From: Bacteroidota bacterium
Lineage (GTDB): Bacteria; Bacteroidota; Bacteroidia; JABEUT01
Length of the DNA stretch: 64,000 bases
Reading direction: 5' to 3'
Assembly: GCA_013288345.1 (NCBI GenBank)
Contig: JABDCA010000001.1
Coordinates: forward strand, 77,417-141,416
In this document: piece after piece, positions 5,910-35,952 of the stretch
Numbering within the stretch: the first letter of the stretch is position 1
Layout of the letters: each line of letters begins with the position of its first letter
The notes under the pieces: model-generated
Told to the model about the DNA's origin: nothing
Seen by the model: only the letters and a program-made list of their open reading frames with translations
Database searches by the model: none
Made by a program: the position numbers and the translations under genes

Positions 5910-6977
5910 TTAAAACAAAGATAACTGTTCATGCCCTTTGTGCTTAAAAAGGCTTAAGTCAAATTCCATTTTTGGTGGAGTACCCATATATTTTTTTACA
6001 GCTACTTTAAATAACTGACGTATAGATTCCGCTACATTTCCTTCACCTCTCATCCTAGTACTCCATCTTGAATCATTAACCTGTCCGCCGTGGCAATCTG
6101 CAATCTGGTTCCATACTTTGCTTGCTCTATCAGGGTAATTTTTCTCCAACCAGTCCTTAAATATTTCTGCAATCTGTCCGTTAAGGCGCACTATGGTATG
6201 CCCTGCACGCTGTGCTCCGTTTTCGGCTGCTGCTTCTATAACCTTGGGTACATCGTAACTGGTAAGCGAAGGAATGATTGGCGCCACCATCACTCCGCAG
6301 GGTATGCCATTGGCTGAAAGTTGTTTCAACACATTCAACCTGTTCTTGTATGTAACAGTTCGCGGTTCCAGTTTCAATCGCAGGTCCTCATCGAGTGATG
6401 TAATGGTTACCATTACATGCACCAGGTTCAGTTTGGCCATTTCGGTTAGTATATCCAGGTCGCGCAGTATAACGGCGTTCTTGGTTATCATGCTCACGGG
6501 GTTGCGGTACTTCAGGCAGACTTCCAGCATGCTGCGGGTTATCTTCAGCTTGCGTTCAATGGGTTGGTAGCAATCGGTATTACCCGAAAACATAATAGGG
6601 CCGGGCTCCCAACTGGCTTTCTTAAAAAGCTCTTCTAATAAAACCGGAGCATTTTTCTTTATCAGTATTTTTTGCTCAAATTCCATACCGGCACTATAGC
6701 CCCAAAACTGGTGCGAATTGCGGGCATAGCAATAAAGGCAACCATGTTCGCAACCCTGGTAAGGGTTCATAGAATATCCACCTATATCTGGGCTATCAAC
6801 CTTGTTGACAATAGTTTTAGGAAACACCTCTATGTACTGTGTATGGTGGTTCTCCATTAACGAATCTTCATCAATGCCCTCCCAATGCTCCTGTACATAA
6901 CTGGTTTTAAAAAACCTGTTGGTAGGGTTTATTTGCGCACCACGTCCGTCAAAATATTCTTTCTTTTCCGTTTCCAT
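5910..6977 (-). CDS. PA0069/Rv2578c-type radical SAM protein (SPL-like)
   Basis: The protein has 355 residues. The radical SAM cluster motif CxxxCxxC is seen at Cys76, Cys80 and Cys83 (GCEHGCLYCYARN). The preceding GYSMNPYQG and the later MFSGNTDCYQPIERKLKITR are characteristic of the PA0069-type family related to spore photoproduct lyase. Radical SAM enzymes use a 4Fe-4S cluster to cleave SAM and make a 5'-deoxyadenosyl radical. This family's substrate is not established to my knowledge, though a DNA-repair role is often suggested from SPL similarity. It is the first gene of a minus-strand run with dtd and mazG. A LexA-like palindrome lies about 380 bases upstream (7355-7373). Confidence 0.88.
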   Translation of the reverse strand: METEKKEYFDGRGAQINPTNRFFKTSYVQEHWEGIDEDSLMENHHTQYIEVFPKTIVNKVDSPDIGGYSMNPYQGCEHGCLYCYARNSHQFWGYSAGMEFEQKILIKKNAPVLLEELFKKASWEPGPIMFSGNTDCYQPIERKLKITRSMLEVCLKYRNPVSMITKNAVILRDLDILTEMAKLNLVHVMVTITSLDEDLRLKLEPRTVTYKNRLNVLKQLSANGIPCGVMVAPIIPSLTSYDVPKVIEAAAENGAQRAGHTIVRLNGQIAEIFKDWLEKNYPDRASKVWNQIADCHGGQVNDSRWSTRMRGEGNVAESIRQLFKVAVKKYMGTPPKMEFDLSLFKHKGHEQLSLF

Positions 6978-7324: not shown

Positions 7325-7354
7325 GCACAAATATAAACATTTTATTTATTATTG

Positions 7355-7373
7355 TTGCTAATATATTTAGCAA
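7355..7373. promoter_or_regulatory. Candidate operator, 19-bp palindrome
   Basis: TTGCTAATATATTTAGCAA has perfect 7-bp arms TTGCTAA/TTAGCAA around TATAT. Each of the two sites at the promoter of the XRE-S24 regulator (35015-35033 and 35070-35088) matches it at 16 of 19 positions. It sits just upstream of the -10 of the lipoprotein operon. I infer it is bound by that LexA-like regulator or a relative. Confidence 0.6.
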
Positions 7374-7407
7374 TTGGGCGATTGTTCATAAATTATTTTA
7401 ATTTCAT

Positions 7408-7415
7408 TATCTTTG
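7408..7415 (+). promoter_or_regulatory. TAnnTTTG -10 element of lipoprotein operon
   Basis: TATCTTTG is an exact match to the Bacteroidota -10 consensus TAnnTTTG, 28 bases before the ATG at 7444. A TTG at 7382-7384 could serve as -33, although the spacing is a little long. Confidence 0.6.
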
Positions 7416-7443: not shown

Positions 7444-8649
7444 ATGCGATATAAATATTACATACCATTCTGCCTTTTACTAATATGTTTTGGTATTTAT
7501 AGTTGCAAGCCCAAAAAGAACTACATAGTAAAGGTGAAGTTGGTAAAGCTTACCGAAGATAACATGTTCGATAGGGACATGATAACCGATTACCTGTTCG
7601 ATGCAGAAGAGCTAAAGGTAGATTCATTGAAAAATAAAAGCGAACACCTTTTTTTACTTGGCATTGACCAATACAAAAACAAAAAGAACCCTGAAGCTGC
7701 AATTAGCCTATTCAAAAAATCTATACTTCTTTTCCCTGACGCTAAAACATATTATGAACTAGGGGATGCATTATTAGAAGGGCAGGAAAAACATCCTGAA
7801 AAAGACAGGCTGAAGATGGCAGTAAATGCTTATAAAACATCTGCCGACCTTAATTTTCAGCCTTTGTCGAATTTGTATTACAATATGGCCTGTGCCAATA
7901 ATTTAATAGGCGAGGGCTATGGAGATGCATTGGATAATATAAGAACTGCTTTTGTAAATGGCTTTACAGATACAACCCGCCTAAAAGAAGACACACGCAT
8001 TAATTTACTTGTAAGTATTGATGGATATAAGGACCTTGTATTTTCCTTAAAGAATAAAGTCACCAAGAAAAGCGGAGAAAGTTTTTTCGACACTTACATG
8101 AATGCCTTCCCGGTTGTATCACAACCATTTAAAATAGATACAAATAAAGTAGCTATGGAAGATTACAAACAATCTATCAGTTATGACTTTGTAAAGTTTA
8201 TTCCTGAAATGGAAAATGTACAGTTCGGCAGAATGGTATCGAACGATTTTTTTTATGTTGCTAAAGTCGCTGAAACTGCCAACTATATAGCGTTGATATA
8301 TTCCTCCGATTCATACTTTGGTTCAGATATGCAGCCCGTTAATGTAAACTTAGTAACGTACGATAAAGTGGGTAATATAATATCGAACAGGCTTTTTGCC
8401 GGGCAGTTTTCTGTCGAAAAAATAAGAAGCGGAAAAATAGAAAACAACATAATTACCTTGCAAGACTATAAAAGAACATGGAAGTATAAGACGGACAGTA
8501 TTGCCATTTATGATAATAGAGTAACAAAGTATGAGTTACTGCAAACTGCAACATTTATGATAAATGATTCGGGAAGAATAATCAAACAATCTGTTCCCGA
8601 TAAATTTAATGATTCTTCTGCCGTAGCTTCAACCGATACTCGCAAATAA
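7444..8649 (+). CDS. TPR-like lipoprotein, family A, copy 1
   Basis: The protein has 401 residues. A lipoprotein signal ends in IYSC (Cys at about 21) followed by KPKKNY. The N-terminal half has TPR-like helices (PEAAISLFKKSILLFPDAKTYYELG, LYYNMACANNL). The C-terminal half is a beta-rich domain with FIPEME, IALIYSS, LVTYDKVGNII and ITLQDYKRTWK. The same layout is found in the genes at 9957 and 12537, giving three paralogs in one operon. The context ACCATGCGAT around the start codon is shared by all three and supports this start. Its stop overlaps the next start (TAATG). It is likely anchored in the outer or inner membrane facing the periplasm. Function unknown. Confidence 0.85.
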   Translation: MRYKYYIPFCLLLICFGIYSCKPKKNYIVKVKLVKLTEDNMFDRDMITDYLFDAEELKVDSLKNKSEHLFLLGIDQYKNKKNPEAAISLFKKSILLFPDAKTYYELGDALLEGQEKHPEKDRLKMAVNAYKTSADLNFQPLSNLYYNMACANNLIGEGYGDALDNIRTAFVNGFTDTTRLKEDTRINLLVSIDGYKDLVFSLKNKVTKKSGESFFDTYMNAFPVVSQPFKIDTNKVAMEDYKQSISYDFVKFIPEMENVQFGRMVSNDFFYVAKVAETANYIALIYSSDSYFGSDMQPVNVNLVTYDKVGNIISNRLFAGQFSVEKIRSGKIENNIITLQDYKRTWKYKTDSIAIYDNRVTKYELLQTATFMINDSGRIIKQSVPDKFNDSSAVASTDTRK

Positions 8650-9923
8650 TGAAAACCCGTATAACAACATTTTTAATAATAGGGGCATTAATTATTCTTC
8701 TGTCGGCTTGCAGCCAGCGGGTTGAAACAATTGTAACAGAGGTGCCGGCCTTACGTGTGAGCAATATATTCAATTCTGATTCAGTATATCTTTATATGGA
8801 AAGATATAAAGGTGAGCATAAAGAAATTGGAGATTTCTACCTGAACGGTAGTAAAGAACTGCTTAAAACTGATCCTGTAAAAGCCCTGCACAATGCAAAA
8901 CGAGCCATAACACTTAACCCCACTAAAGAGGCATATAAACAATTGATAGCTTGTTTAAGCAATAATGAAAAACCTAATTGGGGAGAGATTGAAAACGCAT
9001 ATATTCTTCTTATACTTCCATTCACTGATTTAGATCATTCTTCAAAATCAAAATTCACCCGAGATTATTTGTTTGAAGAACCAGATGAAACTTTATTACA
9101 GGATTTTCTAGTATTCAACATTAATACATCCGGGCTTGTTTGGGGTATAAATAGCCCATACGGACCATATGTTATTGGGTTTGCACTTCCAGATAACATG
9201 AAGTCAATGGCACATGACTTAAAAGCAAAGGTATTAAGTGATAAAAGGCTTAAAATAGATACGACAAGTGAAGATTACAAAAATGTCTTGATACAATTCC
9301 TCTCCCCACAGGAGCTAAAAGATTACCTGGCTAAAGAATCTACTTTTAAATATTTTCTATCCACTATTAAAGATACCACATCAATTTTTGAAATGGACAA
9401 GAATTATGTTCCCCAGTTTGACTATGATAATTTTAATGGACGGGGGAATTGGGATTATTATGACGTGTTAGGATATACTCCAATTTCGTACCTCTATAAA
9501 ACATATATACCTGAGGCAATAAAGGACAGTAACTGGAATGGGGCATACAATTTTGAACACACCCTTAAAATAAATGATTCAATAAACGCTTTAATTTATT
9601 CTATCGATACATCTACTATTGCTTGCCCTGTCGCAATGCGGCATATTTACCACCGCCTTGTTATTTATGGCAGAAACCACCGCATCATTTCTACCGATAT
9701 TGTAGCCAATCAATCGGGTGATGAATTGGCAACTGTAAAATTTAATCATAACAAATACACGATTACGCATTACAAGCGATACTGGGAAAAGCCCTATATA
9801 AAGGGCGATTTTGATAATTACCTTGTAAAAACTGAACAACTGAGTACAAGTGAATATGAAATTAAAGCTGATGGAGCTATAGCAAGAGTATTTGATTCAA
9901 CTAAACAGGAAAGTGCACTTTAA
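8649..9923 (+). CDS. Lipoprotein, family B, copy 1
   Basis: The protein has 424 residues. The lipobox is LSAC, with Cys at about 21. After a short TPR-like stretch (DPVKALHNAKRAITLNPTKEAYKQL) comes a middle region unlike family A. The C-terminal part has INALIYSIDTS, IACPVAMRHIYHRLVIYG, and YTITHYKRYWEKPY, which parallels the C-terminal domain of family A (IALIYSS, LVTYDKVGNII, DYKRTWK). It is paralogous to the gene at 11265, with which it shares CP..MR.IYHRL and KFNHNK.TIT.YKRYWEKP. Start codon overlaps the previous stop, which implies translational coupling. Function unknown. Confidence 0.83.
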   Translation: MKTRITTFLIIGALIILLSACSQRVETIVTEVPALRVSNIFNSDSVYLYMERYKGEHKEIGDFYLNGSKELLKTDPVKALHNAKRAITLNPTKEAYKQLIACLSNNEKPNWGEIENAYILLILPFTDLDHSSKSKFTRDYLFEEPDETLLQDFLVFNINTSGLVWGINSPYGPYVIGFALPDNMKSMAHDLKAKVLSDKRLKIDTTSEDYKNVLIQFLSPQELKDYLAKESTFKYFLSTIKDTTSIFEMDKNYVPQFDYDNFNGRGNWDYYDVLGYTPISYLYKTYIPEAIKDSNWNGAYNFEHTLKINDSINALIYSIDTSTIACPVAMRHIYHRLVIYGRNHRIISTDIVANQSGDELATVKFNHNKYTITHYKRYWEKPYIKGDFDNYLVKTEQLSTSEYEIKADGAIARVFDSTKQESAL

Positions 9924-9956
9924 ATTATACTAAACTCATTAATGAAACTATCTTCC

Positions 9957-11261
9957 ATGCGATTAAAGTATTTTTCGAAGCTTAGCATTCTACTATTAAG
10001 CTTTACTCTTTGGAGTTGCAAGCCCAAGATTAATTATAAGATGCAGCTATCTCTTACCCGTCTTACAAAAGAGAATATTTATAATAAGGAACTGGTTGGC
10101 AATGCAATTTTTGATGCTCAGGAATTGCAAATAGATTCATTGGATAAAAAGAGTAACAGGTTGTTTCTAAAAGGTGTCGACCTATATAAAAACAAAAAAG
10201 ACCCTGCTGCTGCAATTGAGGTATTCAAACAATCCTTGCTGGTTTTCCCGCGTGTAGAAACTTATTATGAAATTGGTTCTGCCTTAATGGATATGCAGGC
10301 AACTGAACAAGGAAAAGATAAAAACACAAAACTACATGAAGCTTTACAGGCGTATGAGGTAGCGGAACACCTGCATTATCAACCTATTTATTCTGTTTAT
10401 TACAATATGGCTTGCGCTGATAACTTACTAGGTTATGATGATAGCACTAAGAGCATTGACAGAATATCATTGAATTTAAACCAAGCAGTTATTAACCTGC
10501 GCAATGCTTTTATGAATGGATTTAATGATACTGCCAAACTTTTACATGACGAAAGGTTGAGCTCACTTATAAAGACAGGTGAGTTTAAACAATTAATGGA
10601 CCAATTAGATGCACAAAAAAATACTTTCAAACCAGAAACAATTTATGACTTGTATGTAGCCTCATTCCCTAACCTCCCACAACCTTTTGTTATTACGTAT
10701 GACAGTGTTGATATGAGAGCATACCATGTACTGGTAAGTTTTGATTTTGCCCGTTTTATTCCTGAAATGGAAAACACTGAATTTGGAAGAGATGTTTCGC
10801 ACGACTATTATGCGGTTGGTAAACTTGCTACAACACCACTTTATACAGCAATTATTTATACTTCAACCGAATTTAACTATGCGCCTGTTTATACCAAACT
10901 GGTAACCTATACACCCAATGGAAATATTATAGACAGCAGGGTAATTTCGTGTCATTGCACACCTGAAAAAGTTAAGACGGTGCGAATTGAAGGCAATATA
11001 ATTACTACAGAAGAGTATAAAATAACATGGAAGACCCCTAACCAGGGTTTTGTTTATTTTGATGATGATGGTCTTGGCCCCGGCCAGACTGCAGTTTATG
11101 ATAGTGTTACTCAGGAAACAACTATTGTAACTGATACCGCTAAAGCCAAGCCGAATACAATCATTAAAACCGAATTATTAGAGAAAGAGGTTTACAAGCT
11201 GACCACTATTGGTAAGATAGTACCCATAAATGGCGATTCAACTAAAGTTACATTCAACTAA
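9957..11261 (+). CDS. TPR-like lipoprotein, family A, copy 2
   Basis: The protein has 434 residues from the ATG at 9957. I prefer this to the ATG at 9942 because the sequence CCATGCGAT around it matches the other two family A starts. The lipobox is LWSC, followed by KPKINY. TPR-like helices (DPAAAIEVFKQSLLVFPRVETYYEIG, VYYNMACADNLLG) precede a C-terminal domain with FIPEMENTEFGRDVSHDYYAVGK, YTAIIYTS, LVTYTPNGNIIDS and ITTEEYKITWK. A segment between the last strands (about 362-410) is longer and Thr/Asp-rich compared with copy 1. There are 33 bases between it and the family B gene upstream. Function unknown. Confidence 0.83.
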   Translation: MRLKYFSKLSILLLSFTLWSCKPKINYKMQLSLTRLTKENIYNKELVGNAIFDAQELQIDSLDKKSNRLFLKGVDLYKNKKDPAAAIEVFKQSLLVFPRVETYYEIGSALMDMQATEQGKDKNTKLHEALQAYEVAEHLHYQPIYSVYYNMACADNLLGYDDSTKSIDRISLNLNQAVINLRNAFMNGFNDTAKLLHDERLSSLIKTGEFKQLMDQLDAQKNTFKPETIYDLYVASFPNLPQPFVITYDSVDMRAYHVLVSFDFARFIPEMENTEFGRDVSHDYYAVGKLATTPLYTAIIYTSTEFNYAPVYTKLVTYTPNGNIIDSRVISCHCTPEKVKTVRIEGNIITTEEYKITWKTPNQGFVYFDDDGLGPGQTAVYDSVTQETTIVTDTAKAKPNTIIKTELLEKEVYKLTTIGKIVPINGDSTKVTFN

Positions 11262-11264
11262 AAT

Positions 11265-12518
11265 ATGCAAGCTTATTCAATGAAACCTATATATAGAACT
11301 ATATTTTTCTTAATAGCTATGAGTTTCTTCAATGCTTGTAAGCCAAGCATTAAAACAGTAGTAGTAACCGTTACACCCTTAAAAGAGAGCTCACTTTATA
11401 ATCCCAATGACGTATCTAATTATCTGAAAACATATAAGGATACCAATAAAGATTTAGCATTAGATTATTATTCAAAAGCAAAGCATACTTTAGTTACCCC
11501 ACCACAAAAAACCTTGTATTATTTAAAGAGGTCATTAAGCCTGCATCCTGATTTTGACAATTATAAAGAGCTTGCTTGGCAGTTATATGCAGGAAAGGAT
11601 TACAAGGAAATGAATGACCTGTACCGCATGCTGGTATTCCCTATAAATGGTTCAAACAACAACTATGTATTTAGTAAACCTAGCCCTTCAATTATTATAG
11701 ATTATGTTGTGTCGAATATTTTAGCCTATAATATAGTATGGAACAATAAGGCCGAACAAGTGGCCCTTACTGATAACCTGGGCTTTAAAATGGATGATAT
11801 AAAAGAAGGTGTTCTGAAAGACCCGAGAATAACATTAACAAAACCTACTACTGAAAACCGCAATGCACTTTGGGCACTTTTAACTAAAGATGAAAAGCTG
11901 CAATACTATAAGGATGATTCTCTGCCAGACAATTACGTACTGCATATTAATGATACTGCAACCATTTTTGAAATTGATAAAAAAGATGTTCAGCAATTTG
12001 TATACCGTGATTATGCAGGTTCAATGAGAGGAAATTACTATAATGAGACTCATGGTAGCTACCAGGAGTCCGACGATGAAGGCTTTGGAAAATTAATTAT
12101 GGAAAACAACCGATATTCAAAATATAATTTAACTGCGCATATGATGGATTATAATTTTGAACGTAGTTTTTCTTTTAATGACTCCATTAATGTATTTATT
12201 TATGCTATTGACACTTCAGAAATAGCATGCCCAAAGGACATGAGATGCATTTACCATAGGCTCCTAACTACTACTAAAAAAGGAGCTATACTAGATGACA
12301 AAATAGTTGCTCTGCAGTTAGGTGAGCAGCTTTCAACTTTAAAGTTCAACCATAATAAGTTCACCATTACATATTATAAACGTTATTGGGAGAAGCCATT
12401 CACAAAAAATGATTTTGATAATCATCTGTTAAATAAAACTGAAGAGCTTGGAGACGTGGACTTTGAAATTACGCCAGCAGGCATGATTGAAAAAATCCGA
12501 AAACCTCATAGAGATTAA
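11265..12518 (+). CDS. Lipoprotein, family B, copy 2
   Basis: The protein has 417 residues from 11265; an alternative ATG at 11280 (MKPIYRT) gives a tidier signal peptide. The lipobox is FNAC, then KPSIKT. Like copy 1 at 8649 it has an N-terminal helical region (TLYYLKRSLSLHPDFDNYKELAWQL), a central region ending in IFEIDKKDVQQFVY, and a C-terminal domain with INVFIYAIDTSEIACPKDMRCIYHRLL and KFTITYYKRYWEKPF. Only 3 bases separate it from family A copy 2. Function unknown. Confidence 0.83.
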   Translation: MQAYSMKPIYRTIFFLIAMSFFNACKPSIKTVVVTVTPLKESSLYNPNDVSNYLKTYKDTNKDLALDYYSKAKHTLVTPPQKTLYYLKRSLSLHPDFDNYKELAWQLYAGKDYKEMNDLYRMLVFPINGSNNNYVFSKPSPSIIIDYVVSNILAYNIVWNNKAEQVALTDNLGFKMDDIKEGVLKDPRITLTKPTTENRNALWALLTKDEKLQYYKDDSLPDNYVLHINDTATIFEIDKKDVQQFVYRDYAGSMRGNYYNETHGSYQESDDEGFGKLIMENNRYSKYNLTAHMMDYNFERSFSFNDSINVFIYAIDTSEIACPKDMRCIYHRLLTTTKKGAILDDKIVALQLGEQLSTLKFNHNKFTITYYKRYWEKPFTKNDFDNHLLNKTEELGDVDFEITPAGMIEKIRKPHRD

Positions 12519-12536
12519 AAACTAAAAATACATACC

Positions 12537-13904
12537 ATGCGATTTACAAACTTTATTAAGCTCAGCATTTTAGCATTAGGCATTTGCGTATTAGGCTGCA
12601 AGCCAAAAGTTAAAATAAACCCAAAATTGAAATTGTCGTTATCAAGCCTTACAGTAAATAATATTTATGACAAGCATCTTGTAAGTGGAGCCGTTTTTTA
12701 CGCGAACACACTTAAAACAGATTCGCTGACCAAAAAGAGCAATGCATTATTTGCAAAGGGTGATGATTTGTATAAGAATAAAAAAATGCCTGATTCGGCT
12801 ATTGTATTGCTTAAGCAATCGTTAGTGGCACTGCCGCAACCAAACACTTATTTTGAAATAGGCCAGGTATTGATGGATATGCAAAGCAGTGCAAAATCAG
12901 ACACAAAAAAATCTGAATTGAATGAAGCCTTGCAGGCATACGATATGGCAACTTTTTTACATTATCAGCCGCTTGCTGTTATTTACTATAATATGGCCTG
13001 TGCCGATAACTTATTAGCAAGTTATGATAGCGCAATCGATGGAAATAAAATGTCGTTCCATTTAAGCCAGGCCATTTTTAACCTTACTAATGCTTTTGAG
13101 CATGGCTTTAACGACACTGCCACACTACAAAAGGATGGGAGGCTGACCTCGTTAATTAATACAGATTCGTACAGGCAGATAATAACACAGTTAAATGCCA
13201 AAACAGATTTTGATAAGTATAAAGTATTATTTCCTGTTCTTACTCAACCTTATGCTAATTCGGTTGATAGCCTGGATATGAAGGGCGCTGAAATAAGTAC
13301 TGATTTCGCCTCTTTTATTCCGGGTATGGTAACTACACACTTCGACAGGGGCGTAAACCAGGATTACTATGCAATTGGAAAAATTGCAGAAACTCAGGCT
13401 TATACGGCCCTTATCTATTCCACTTCATTATTCGATGGTATGGAAGACCCTGAGTATTGGCAGGGGCCAAACATGGTCTCTACCTTTTTGTTGACATATT
13501 CTCCAACAGGGACTGTTATCGATAGCTTGCTTATTTCGTGTCGCTGTACCGAAGAAAGCGCAAAGACTGTAAAAATCGCAAACAACATTATTACAACACA
13601 AGATTATACATTAACCTGGAAATATTCCGATTCTGTTATGAATAATTTTCAAAGCAGAATTTTCGAACTGCAACAGAAGCAGGAGGAGTATACTGAGAAC
13701 ATTACTAATACCAATGCAACTGATACTACACAGCAAAAAAACCTTCAAAATGAACTTACTGATGTCACCACCCAGGTTGATTCGTTAAACACAATTAACA
13801 ATGCCGTAGTAAAGAAACAATTAGGCGATAAAAAATCGTACAGGTTAAAAGATGATGGTAAAATTGAAGAAATACATGAGTCAGCTAAAACCGCTATGAA
13901 ATAA
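12537..13904 (+). CDS. TPR-like lipoprotein, family A, copy 3
   Basis: The protein has 455 residues, with lipobox VLGC followed by KPKVKINPK. It repeats the family A plan: TPR-like helices (PDSAIVLLKQSLVALPQPNTYFEIG, VIYYNMACADNLLA), FIPGMVTTHFDRGVNQDYYAIGKIAE, TALIYST, LLTYSPTGTVIDS and ITTQDYTLTWKY. It differs by an extra Gln/Asn/Thr-rich probable coiled coil near the C-terminus (about 375-430). It is the last gene of the five-gene operon. Its TAA stop abuts the left arm of the palindromic element that follows. Function unknown. Confidence 0.83.
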   Translation: MRFTNFIKLSILALGICVLGCKPKVKINPKLKLSLSSLTVNNIYDKHLVSGAVFYANTLKTDSLTKKSNALFAKGDDLYKNKKMPDSAIVLLKQSLVALPQPNTYFEIGQVLMDMQSSAKSDTKKSELNEALQAYDMATFLHYQPLAVIYYNMACADNLLASYDSAIDGNKMSFHLSQAIFNLTNAFEHGFNDTATLQKDGRLTSLINTDSYRQIITQLNAKTDFDKYKVLFPVLTQPYANSVDSLDMKGAEISTDFASFIPGMVTTHFDRGVNQDYYAIGKIAETQAYTALIYSTSLFDGMEDPEYWQGPNMVSTFLLTYSPTGTVIDSLLISCRCTEESAKTVKIANNIITTQDYTLTWKYSDSVMNNFQSRIFELQQKQEEYTENITNTNATDTTQQKNLQNELTDVTTQVDSLNTINNAVVKKQLGDKKSYRLKDDGKIEEIHESAKTAMK

Positions 13905-31505: not shown

Positions 31506-32557
31506 TATTTCAGTTTCGCTTTCACTTCTTTATACGATGCCTGTGCCTCTACAAAATCAGGCCTTTGTTTTATAGCATGTGCAAAATCTGTTTCTGCATT
31601 TGCAAGGTCATTCATTTCCTGGTAACAATTTCCTCTGGCATAATATGCCATTGTATAACTAGTATCACTTTTAATTGCTTTGCTAAAGTAATAAATGCCC
31701 TTCTTATAGTCCTTGCCATTTAAATAATAAATAAAGCCAAGGTTATATAATGCAAATTTATAGGTAGAATCTAGTTGCAAAAGCTGGGTGTATGAATTTA
31801 TAGCATTATCATAATCACCTTTAGTCTGGTAGAACATGCCCTTATCGTAATAAGGCTCAACACTATGCGGATCGGCATTAAGTGCAGCATTAAAATAATC
31901 AACCGCATGTATACTTCCCTTTCTTGAATAAATTAAGCCCAATTGAATATCAGCATCGAAATAAGAAGAGTTTTGTTCTATGGCAGTTTGCAGGCTCGAT
32001 ATAGCTTTAGTTGTATCATGCACTTCAAGGAAAATCATCCCCTTCATAAAATAAGCTTTAGCCAAATGCACATTTATACGCAAAGCCTTATCTGTTAATT
32101 CAATAGCATCTTTATACTTCTTAACATAAAAATAAATCTCGCCAAGCTTTAGCAGTGCATCTGTATTAGCAGGGTTAAGTACAATACATTTTTCAAATGC
32201 AGCCTTAGATTCGCGGGTATGTCCCAAAACAAACTCTGCATCCGCCAGGCTATTATAATACTTGTCCTTAGTGCTGTCTATTTTCACCGTCTCAGTAAAA
32301 TCCTTCTCAGCACGGGTATATTTTTTTTGCAATGCTTCAAGCTTTCCCCTGTTCCAATAAGCATTGGCATCTAAAGGGTGGCCCATGATATACGCCGAAT
32401 ACCATTCGATCTTTGCGGAAATAGTATCAGCAGCAACATGGCTCGTATCCTTACCATGCTGCTGCTGTACCTGTTGTGAATTGCTATTCTTGCAAGCTGT
32501 GAGAGCCAATGTGATTCCCAGAAGTCCTGCAAAAACCGCACGAAAAGTTAAATTCAT
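31505..32557 (-). CDS. TPR lipoprotein
   Basis: The protein has 350 residues. A lipoprotein signal ends LALTAC (Cys at about 22). About seven canonical TPR units follow from residue 60, e.g. [60 protein letters not shown] and [31 protein letters not shown]. It is probably a periplasmic scaffold. Its start overlaps the recA stop by 4 bases (ATGA), so it is translated with recA, which is an unusual partnership but seen on other Bacteroidota contigs in my recollection. Confidence 0.88.
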
Positions 32558-33603
32558 ACTTTCTGTGCGAGGGCGTCTTTAATCTTGTTTTCTATTTCTT
32601 CAGCCAGTTCAGGGTTATCATTAAATATTTGCTTAACAGCTTCCCTTCCTTGTCCGAGGCGTGTTTCGCCATAGCTGAACCAGGCACCGGCCTTTTTAAC
32701 TACGTTCTTCTCTACTCCAAGGTCAACAATTTCGCCAACCTTCGAAATACCTTCTCCGTATATAATGTCGAACTCAGCCAGGCCAAAAGGAGGGCAAACT
32801 TTATTCTTAACCACTTTTACACGGGTACGGTTACCTACCACTTGCTCGCCTTCTTTAATTTGGGCAATACGGCGGATATCTAAACGAACCGAAGCATAAA
32901 ACTTAAGTGCATTACCACCGGTGGTTGTTTCAGGGTTACCGAACATAACACCAATTTTCTCTCTCAATTGGTTAATGAACACGCAGCAGCAACCGGTTTT
33001 ATTAATAATTCCGGTAAGCTTACGCAGCGCTTGCGACATTAACCTCGCTTGCAAGCCCATCATCGAATCACCCATTTCGCCTTCAATTTCGGCACGTGGG
33101 GTAAGCGCAGCTACTGAGTCAATAACTACCATATCTACAGCACCCGAACGAATCAGATTTTCTACAATCTCAAGGGCTTGTTCGCCGTTATCGGGTTGCG
33201 ATATAAGCAAGTTGCCAATATCAACACCAAGCTTGGCTGCATAAAAACGGTCGAAAGCATGCTCCGCATCAATAAAGGCAGCAATACCACCGTTGCGTTG
33301 CACGTTTGCAATTGCATGCAGTGCCAATGTTGTTTTACCTGATGATTCAGGGCCATAAATTTCAACTACACGGCCTTTAGGATAACCACCAACACCTAAC
33401 GCTATATCGAGTGTGAGTGAACCTGTTGGTATCACTTCTATCGAATCGCCAGGGGCATCGCCCATTTTCATAATGGTACCTTTACCATAGGTCTTTTCAA
33501 TCGTCTCAATGGTAAGCGCTAAGGCTTTCAGTTTTTCTTTGTTCGCCTCTTTTACTGCGTCTTTCTTCTCTGCTTTTTCTACTTTTTCTGCTACTTTTTC
33601 CAT
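32554..33603 (-). CDS. recA: Recombinase RecA
   Basis: The protein has 349 residues. Walker A is GPESSGKT (about 84-91), and the DNA-binding loop regions are seen in [16 protein letters not shown] and [20 protein letters not shown]. The N-terminus carries a Lys/Glu-rich extension of about 20 residues ([20 protein letters not shown]), common in Bacteroidota. It mediates strand exchange and activates self-cleavage of LexA-like repressors. A LexA-like XRE-S24 regulator lies upstream on the same strand, but I find no copy of its operator directly before recA. Confidence 0.97.
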
Positions 33604-33686: not shown

Positions 33687-34085
33687 TTACGCCCTCTGAT
33701 AGTTGAAATTGGGTTCATTAAAGTACCCCATTGATTGTTTGCTTTTCGCCTCTTCTAACATGCTAACTGCAGGTATTTGAATATAGTCTTGCTTAAGCCC
33801 GTATTGCATTGCATAATGCTTAGCCTGGTTCATCATTTTCGCCAACACTTCATTAACCGCAAAATCAATAACTTGCCTGTAATCGGTATGATAGCTGCCA
33901 TTTAAATAATTAAGGTTTATACTTCGGTTTGCTTTTATTATTATCGAATACTCTCCAGTCATTTCAACCGCTCTATCCTTACCTGCAAAAGTCTGCAAAT
34001 ATTTTATCCTTATTTTTATGCTATAACTTAAAGGTACCTCACCTGCCTTTGATACCTTTTGCAGGGTTTTCATTTGTATAAGCAA
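33687..34085 (-). CDS. Hypothetical protein, probable C-terminal part of a frameshifted gene
   Basis: The frame has 132 codons from a TTG at 34085; the first ATG is at 34073. The text reads KTLQKVSKAGEVPLSYSIKIRIKYLQTFAGKDRAVEMTGEYSIIIKANRS and then a helical part with a C-terminal tail NEPNFNYQRA. I recognise no family. Upstream, the same frame continues to a stop near 34145 without ATG, while the ORF at 34087-34227 in another frame leads into it. The two probably make one protein of about 179 residues interrupted by a single-base shift near 34100-34123. Confidence 0.6.
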   Translation of the reverse strand: MLIQMKTLQKVSKAGEVPLSYSIKIRIKYLQTFAGKDRAVEMTGEYSIIIKANRSINLNYLNGSYHTDYRQVIDFAVNEVLAKMMNQAKHYAMQYGLKQDYIQIPAVSMLEEAKSKQSMGYFNEPNFNYQRA

Positions 34086-34086
34086 C

Positions 34087-34227
34087 TCATCCTTTTCGGT
34101 AGCATTTAAAATACAGGTTTTTTGAATTACCGTGAAACAAGCCTAAGCTAATTTCAAGTGGATCGTGTTTAATTAATTCAGCAACTGAGTCAACAAACAT
34201 AGAGGGCAACCTATCTATCTTTCTCAT
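34087..34227 (-). CDS. Small ORF, probable N-terminal part of the frameshifted gene
   Basis: From the ATG at 34227 it reads MRKIDRLPSMFVDSVAELIK, then HDPLEISLGLFHGNSKNLYF, and ends with TGA at 34087-34089 after KCYRKG (46 residues). The ATG is 23 bases downstream of the S24 regulator stop, so it is placed as the next gene of that transcript. The frame of the following ORF is +1 relative to this one. A run of six A (minus strand, about 34118-34123) and a TTTTAAA run offer places for a sequencing or real indel. Confidence 0.5.
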   Translation of the reverse strand: MRKIDRLPSMFVDSVAELIKHDPLEISLGLFHGNSKNLYFKCYRKG

Positions 34228-34250
34228 AGTATTATTTTTAATTGAGGCTC

Positions 34251-35015
34251 TCATTTCTTAATTCTTTCAAATTCTATTTTCAAATCGCGCAACATACTCA
34301 TTATGCTTTCCAGATTCAATTCCTCAGGTTTGTTCTTCGATGTATTTATGGCACATTGGTATTCCCAAACCTCCAAAATATCTTCTGCTTTTACTTTATA
34401 AGGCTCGTACACCTTATTATCAGAATGCAAACTAAGTGTACCATCTTCCTTTACATTACTATATACACGCTTGTAAACCAAACCCTCATCGCGGGTTACC
34501 AAAATATAGGTTTGTCCGTCTTTTACTTCTCTTAACGATTCCATGTACTTGCCTATAACAAAGCTTCCATTGGTAAGCGGAGGCATTGAATCGCCCTTTA
34601 TTGGGAAAGCCCTGTGTTTGCCTACGGGTAGAAAAGGGAAATTCATGTGTTGCAGGCTTTCAATATATTCCGGATCTGCATATCCATTAAGATACCCCGC
34701 CTGCGCTTTAATGGGTACTACTTCAACTAGGTCATTACCATTTTTATCTACCATTATAGGAAACAGAATTCGGTTTTCACCCACTTTCATCAAATCTTCC
34801 GGTTTAGTTTTAGATAAATTGGCACGCAGGAGGGCATCTATGGCAACATGAAAATAATCAGCGAATTTTATTAATAGATCATAAGGTGGTTCAGCTCGGC
34901 CTTCTTCATAAGATGCTAAACGGCCTCTTGGAATGCTTAACTCGGTAGCAAGCGATTCCTGTGAAAGGTTCCGTAGGGCTCTGAGTGTTTTTATGTTTTT
35001 ATCTATTAGCGACAT
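34251..35015 (-). CDS. XRE-S24 LexA-like transcriptional regulator
   Basis: The protein has 254 residues from the ATG at 35015 (MSLIDKNIKTLRALRNLSQE). An upstream GTG at 35033 is possible but lies inside the promoter. An XRE helix-turn-helix (about 5-58: LSQESLATELSIPRGRLASYEEGRAEPPYDLL) is joined to an S24 peptidase domain. The catalytic Ser is in IKGDSMPPL, and the Lys is probably in GLVYKRVYSN. Such repressors cleave themselves when RecA filaments form, releasing target genes. There is an exact TAnnTTTG promoter, and two similar 19-bp palindromes sit at it, implying autorepression. Confidence 0.87.
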   Translation of the reverse strand: MSLIDKNIKTLRALRNLSQESLATELSIPRGRLASYEEGRAEPPYDLLIKFADYFHVAIDALLRANLSKTKPEDLMKVGENRILFPIMVDKNGNDLVEVVPIKAQAGYLNGYADPEYIESLQHMNFPFLPVGKHRAFPIKGDSMPPLTNGSFVIGKYMESLREVKDGQTYILVTRDEGLVYKRVYSNVKEDGTLSLHSDNKVYEPYKVKAEDILEVWEYQCAINTSKNKPEELNLESIMSMLRDLKIEFERIKK

Positions 35016-35033
35016 TGACAATATATTTAGCAC
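35015..35033. promoter_or_regulatory. Candidate operator O1 of the S24 regulator
   Basis: TTGACAATATATTTAGCAC matches the palindrome at 7355-7373 at 16 of 19 positions and shares its TATAT centre. It covers the region between the -10 and the start codon. Confidence 0.55.
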
Positions 35034-35062
35034 AAAATTACCAAGTATTTTATCAATTCAAA
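35033..35062 (-). promoter_or_regulatory. Promoter of the S24 regulator
   Basis: On the minus strand TTTG (35062-35059), 18 bases, then TAATTTTG (35040-35033) match the Bacteroidota TTTG/TAnnTTTG promoter. The transcript would start about 12 bases before the ATG. Confidence 0.6.
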
Positions 35063-35069
35063 TAGTTGA

Positions 35070-35088
35070 ATGCTATTATTTTTAGCAA
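35070..35088. promoter_or_regulatory. Candidate operator O2 of the S24 regulator
   Basis: ATGCTATTATTTTTAGCAA matches the 7355-7373 palindrome at 16 of 19 positions, with the same 7-5-7 spacing. It lies just upstream of the -33 element. The rest of the 35089-35313 gap shows no gene. Confidence 0.55.
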
Positions 35089-35355: not shown

Positions 35356-35565
35356 ATGAAAAACTTAAGTTTAATCCTCGCTTCACTGGTTCTTTTCGCT
35401 GGTGTATCTTTTGCAAGTCCTATTACAAAGAAAAATGTAAAGCAAGACAAGGCAAAAACTGAAACAAAGAAAACTGAAAAGAAAGAAGACAAGAAAACAG
35501 ATAAGAAAGAGGTGAAGAAAGACACCAAGAAAACCGAAACCAAAACTACTACTGACAAAAAGTAA
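35356..35565 (+). CDS. Small secreted Lys-rich protein, copy 1
   Basis: The protein has 69 residues from the ATG at 35356. The longer frame from 35302 would include the promoter. A signal peptide MKNLSLILASLVLFAGVSFA precedes SPITKK. The mature part of about 49 residues is made almost only of Lys, Glu, Thr, Asp (KTETKKTEKKEDKKTDKKEV and similar), so it should be disordered and very basic. A near copy follows at 35749. It has its own promoter and terminator. Possible roles include binding to anionic envelope polymers or nucleic acid; none is established. Confidence 0.8.
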   Translation: MKNLSLILASLVLFAGVSFASPITKKNVKQDKAKTETKKTEKKEDKKTDKKEVKKDTKKTETKTTTDKK

Positions 35566-35748: not shown

Positions 35749-35952
35749 ATGAAAAACTTAAGTTTAATCCTCGCTTCACTGGTTCTCTTCGCTGGTGTAT
35801 CTTTTGCAAGTCCTATTGTTAAGCACGTAAAACAAGACAAAGCAAAGACTGAAAAGAAAGAAACAAAGAAAGAAGAAGCTAAGCCTGCTGCCAAGAAAGA
35901 GGTAAAGAAAGAATCTAAAAAGACCGAAACCAAAGCTGCTGACAAGAAATAA
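35749..35952 (+). CDS. Small secreted Lys-rich protein, copy 2
   Basis: The protein has 67 residues. Its signal peptide and first residues (MKNLSLILASLVLFAGVSFA, then SPI) are identical to copy 1, and the DNA of that part is nearly identical too. The mature part diverges by Ala-containing repeats (EEAKPAAKKEVKKESKKTET). Promoter, leader, gene and terminator are all duplicated, which points to a recent tandem duplication of a complete transcription unit. Function unknown; likely a disordered polycation in the envelope. Confidence 0.82.
   Translation: MKNLSLILASLVLFAGVSFASPIVKHVKQDKAKTEKKETKKEEAKPAAKKEVKKESKKTETKAADKK

Follow-up and report, generated by a model that had tools for sequence, protein, structure and literature searches.

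The palindrome at 7355-7373 is positioned between a radical SAM gene and a five-gene lipoprotein operon that diverge from it, within the window, by which we mean the whole 64-kb stretch of DNA that was analysed. It reads TTGCTAATATATTTAGCAA, has both 7-nt arms perfect, and is the sole zero-mismatch copy of TTGCTAA-N5-TTAGCAA in the window. The earlier note had drawn a connection from it to 2 similar palindromes at the promoter of an XRE-S24 gene, and these are present as described, TTGACAATATATTTAGCAC at 35015-35033 and ATGCTATTATTTTTAGCAA at 35070-35088, each matching 7355-7373 at 16 of 19 positions. The radical SAM protein is assigned from its sequence to the PA0069 family (NF033668) within COG1533/SplB, scoring above the family cut-off, an assignment that does not imply identity with spore photoproduct lyase. 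The putative -7 box on its side of the junction is also found in G001, a relative in the same genus, and together with the half-site TGCTAA it has the same layout as the promoter of the S24 gene. Table 1 collects the coordinates.

Table 1. Features of the window, with copies of the interspersed repeat elsewhere in the genome
Feature	Position	Strand	Remarks
PA0069-family radical SAM protein (COG1533/SplB-like)	5910..6977	-	NF033668 474 bits, cut-off 360; most likely target
Putative Bacteroidetes -7 box TATATTTG of radical SAM gene	7328..7335	-	followed directly by half-site TGCTAA (7327-7322); presumed promoter
Operator palindrome TTGCTAA-TATAT-TTAGCAA	7355..7373	.	between the radical SAM gene and the divergent lipoprotein operon
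Putative -7 box TATCTTTG of lipoprotein operon	7408..7415	+	also in G001; presumed promoter
Five-gene lipoprotein operon	7444..13904	+	7444-8649, 8649-9923, 9942-11261, 11265-12518, 12537-13904; possible collateral target
recA	32554..33603	-	first intact gene after S24, on the same strand
XRE-S24 repressor, 254 aa (P0001), non-canonical LexA (probable)	34251..35015	-	HTH_3 + Peptidase_S24; S143, K182, A106-G107 conserved
Operator next to S24 start codon	35016..35032	.	TGACAATATATTTAGCA on +
S24 core promoter box TAATTTTG (TAnnTTTG)	35033..35040	-	flanked by palindromes 35015-35033 and 35070-35088
Middle, weaker S24 operator	35039..35055	.	TACCAAGTATTTTATCA on +; between the other two
Upstream S24 operator	35071..35087	.	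TGCTATTATTTTTAGCA on +; motif match and matrix score
Interspersed repeat copies, own genome	L006 1410-1589; L002 1427-1609; L012 1438-1611; L013 1415-1606; L188 1533-1741; others

The XRE-S24 repressor and its relatives

P0001 matches HTH_3 (PF01381, 41.8 bits) at the N-terminus and Peptidase_S24 (PF00717, 33.1 bits) at the C-terminus, both in excess of the cut-off, and the LexA winged-helix domain (PF01726) is not among its domain matches, which list only HTH_3, HTH_19, HTH_31, and Peptidase_S24. A PDB search with the S24 profile gave no matches beyond the HTH domains of XRE-type proteins. Across 16 orthologues, G107, S143, and K182 are invariant and A106 is found in at least 90%, giving the Ala-Gly cleavage site and the Ser-Lys dyad. 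The ATG start codon is at 35015 on the minus strand, directly abutted by the first palindrome, and the promoter contains 3 operators of the CTAA-N5-TTAG type, the best of which (35071) has arms CTAT/TTAG with one mismatch to the core; promoters of S24 orthologues have exact cores. An EMSA-proven CTAA-N5-TTAG operator was described for the non-canonical LexA of Bacteroidetes by Sanchez-Osuna et al. 2021 (PMC8565304), and P0001 carries all the sequence features of that family that were tested, so by sequence it has the credentials to be a member. The earlier note's proposal of a self-regulated LexA-like repressor is supported by the operators in its own promoter and by the S24 family features.

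That proposal depends on conservation at orthologous S24 promoters, and this is clear across the phylum. Relatives of S24 are widespread, in 44 of 60 genomes and at no fewer than 80 named Bacteroidetes loci, and in their promoters a TAnnTTTG box is surrounded by TGCTA-type palindromes, located at about -17 and about -40 relative to the start codon. A dinB gene is present on 36 of the 80 named S24 loci, often as a divergent neighbor. In 4 species of the genus (G000, which is the present genome, G004, G005, and G009), S24 is followed by recA on the same strand, an order that suggests co-transcription of the 2 genes, with recA apparently retaining a promoter-like box of its own. That promoter was discarded as an operator site, since no operator is visible there. 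The G004 S24 protein is 94% identical to that of the window, and the dinB promoter of that genome carries an operator pair. In G048, S24, dinB, a dnaE-type polymerase gene, and a PA0069 radical SAM gene form one cluster on one strand (L192 1322-7733) with operators upstream of S24, and in G014, S24 and the radical SAM gene are divergent neighbors with a palindrome in common. Together with the protein features and the operators at orthologues, this recA and dinB context makes the regulon proposed in the earlier note likely to be an SOS regulon. Elsewhere in the genus, G002 and G006 have a diverged form of S24 with other palindromes, S24 was not found in G003, and it was not found in G001, an assembly that is 60% complete, leaving the conserved junction site there with no visible regulator.

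Two further observations belong to this neighborhood. The small ORF between S24 and recA (33687-34254, minus strand) is interrupted by a frameshift into pieces 34254-34087 and 34085-33687, where the G004 copy reads through. Divergent from S24, 35356-35565 and 35749-35952 on the plus strand encode 2 similar small lysine-rich proteins in tandem with near-identical signal peptides.

Occurrence of the palindrome in the window and the genome

At 3 mismatches, the window holds 14 matches to the motif against 9.4 expected, a chance level that is not significant by itself, and that count was discarded as evidence. It is, along with the AT-rich intergenic setting, what can be said for the palindrome at 7355 having arisen by chance or being a site for an unrelated regulator. 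Against this, a second-order Markov null predicts only 0.006 occurrences of the exact 12-position core in 64 kb and 0.3 in a whole genome. A scoring matrix made from the S24-promoter operators of relatives and of the window, with the 7356 site left out, gives its top score in the window to 7356-7372 at 23.6, followed by S24 sites at 20.0 and 17.7 and then by 13.0, and 40 Mb of simulated sequence contained no score of 23.5 or more. Only one relative, G001, was found to share the radical SAM/lipoprotein junction, and it has an exact operator core there, TGCTAAATTACTTAGCA, which is kept despite diverged flanking DNA; the chance of a site at that junction is about 0.0014, judged from the genome-wide density of exact sites in G001. 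When the junctions of G000 and G001 were aligned with plain MAFFT, the 2 palindromes did not fall into register. An identical 17-mer, TGCTAATATATTTAGCA, lies upstream of the G362 orthologue of the radical SAM gene (L335). Also against an unrelated regulator, the second S24 protein of the present genome (C74, 125-2024), divergent from a dinB-type gene, has a different promoter palindrome, TGTAAAAATATTACA. We consider chance or an unrelated regulator very improbable. The second palindrome suggests 2 separate damage circuits, and paralogues with diverged palindromes have also been described (PMC8565304).

Genome-wide counts come from searching an assembly of 87% completeness for patterns. The earlier note had looked to an excess over random frequency, and there is one, 56 sites with up to 2 mismatches versus 15 for a reversed control, but the best sites are mostly in an interspersed repeat or in coding sequences. 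Among the 12 with at most 1 mismatch, 6 are in an interspersed repeat, 5 are inside coding sequences, and the remaining one is 7355. Because repeats and coding sites inflate the numbers, the genome-wide count was discarded as direct evidence. A degenerate pattern gave 11 sites, with only 7356 and the S24 promoter being intergenic outside repeats. So few sites of that kind imply that the regulon of the S24 repressor may be small, as far as the assembled part of the genome goes. Exact operator cores were seen in relatives upstream of a methyltransferase-like gene (L084 1501-1517, G007) and of a TonB-receptor-like gene (L094 1501-1517, G001), both names being guesses from sequence.

The repeat is about 120-190 bp long, with conserved arms CATTGTTAATAACAATGAATAACAATAGAA ... 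AATTGATAATCAATA around a variable central hairpin that is often TTGCTAA-N5-TTAGCAA. About 15 distinct copies were examined, and in about half the center resembles the operator, while about half have no palindrome. A composite TTGAnnATCAA-N12-17-TGCTAA has 8 matches and none in the reversed control; the composite box is common to repeat copies, 2 promoters of G004 (those of S24 and dinB), and the S24 promoter of G009 (L285, L288, L290), and in the repeats TTGAnnATCAA stands at nearly the same spacing to the operator as in those promoters. It is doubtful, though conceivable, that the repeat is a mobile or decoy SOS element, spreading operators or titrating the repressor. A site on C5 near an Ada-like gene sits in a repeat copy and was discarded as a further target, being unproven. 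The question for 7355 is whether its palindrome is a copy or relic of this repeat with no link to the S24 regulator, as might be proposed from the share of the best genome sites that repeat copies account for and from the presence of the repeat in G001 as well (L090). The repeat arms do not flank 7355, where the match at 7355-7386 is only 3.3 bits with E = 2.7, and they are absent from the G001 junction site too. These absences, the copies with no palindrome, and the occurrence of the palindrome in other families, at the radical SAM orthologues of their genomes, make a repeat origin very unlikely.

The probable target of the junction operator

The earlier note had offered envelope lipoproteins or a DNA-repair radical SAM enzyme as members of the regulon, and these fared differently. 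Upstream regions of 83 radical SAM orthologues from across the class include 20 that score 15 or more, versus 0.15 expected, and 18 exact CTAA-N5-TTAG cores, versus 0.56 expected. Orthologues of the lipoprotein genes occur in few genomes, and none of 13 such loci elsewhere has an operator. On the operators at its orthologues and this absence at lipoprotein loci, the radical SAM gene, rather than the lipoprotein genes, is most likely the target, and the promoter used would be the minus-strand one near 7335. PA0069 itself may belong to the Pseudomonas LexA regulon, although the papers searched gave no confirmation of this.

The reverse assignment, in which control by the operator falls mainly on the lipoprotein operon and envelope lipoproteins belong to the SOS response of this lineage, draws on the distribution within the genus. 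The operator is found exactly in the 2 genomes where the lipoprotein operon lies beside the radical SAM gene, G000 and G001, and is absent from the 3 with radical SAM alone (G002, G003, and G006), which have a different gene upstream. In G001, the operator also overlaps the place where the -33 element of the lipoprotein promoter would be expected. In the present genome, the site is upstream of the -33 region of the lipoprotein promoter, and this, the 13 lipoprotein loci, and the recurrence of the radical SAM family as a target, including in the published regulon (PMC8565304), weigh against lipoprotein control, which we regard as unlikely. The link of the lipoprotein operon to the operator rests on proximity, and the operon may be affected in passing. 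Assigning the operator to the radical SAM gene does have a cost, since it lies 395 bp from the start (524 in G001), where orthologues typically have about 30-80 bp, so that a long leader must be assumed. The leader contains a GTCATACTGAGTCTGTCGAAG stretch resembling one that flanks the G001 repeat copy (L090), so insertions may have displaced the operator from the radical SAM gene.

Judged from sequence, then, 7355-7373 is very probably a binding site of the cell's own SOS repressor, a LexA substitute, and the fuller reading, that it is an operator of the XRE-S24 repressor most likely serving the radical SAM gene, is one that we hold with good confidence. By analogy with the published family, in undamaged cells a repressor dimer would bind TGCTAA-N5-TTAGCA at the 3 sites of its own promoter and at the junction. 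Upon DNA damage, RecA filaments would trigger repressor self-cleavage at Ala106-Gly107, and the cleaved repressor would fall off, so that S24, followed by recA, would be induced together with the probable target at the junction, the radical SAM gene; the divergent lipoprotein operon might be affected as well. Mitomycin induction and binding were shown experimentally in other species of the non-canonical LexA family, and its predicted regulon includes recA, dinB, and splB-type radical SAM genes (PMC8565304).

The present system resembles that family in its HTH_3 and Peptidase_S24 domains with Ala-Gly and Ser-Lys conserved, in having several CTAA-N5-TTAG operators at its own promoter, and in a regulon that appears to take in dinB, recA, and a splB-type radical SAM gene. 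It differs from the published cases in that sites clear of both repeats and genes are very few in this genome, that S24 immediately precedes recA in the genus, and that the junction operator, at an unusually long distance from the start of the radical SAM gene, also faces a lipoprotein operon with which it is shared. With canonical LexA it has in common a presumably self-cleaving S24 repressor of damage genes and palindromic operators, but P0001 has a phage CI-like HTH_3 in place of a LexA winged helix, and the operator is different.

The SOS system itself was already known. Reading the palindrome in SOS terms is sound, with better support for the radical SAM gene as target than for the lipoprotein operon. 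Motif counts here need caution, inflated as they are by a repeat bearing the same palindrome. These findings assign an uncultured lineage of Bacteroidota to the non-canonical SOS system, itself described only recently, and show a gene order in which the SOS repressor immediately precedes recA. They also add comparative evidence, obtained independently, that in this class the SOS response recurrently targets the PA0069-family radical SAM gene.
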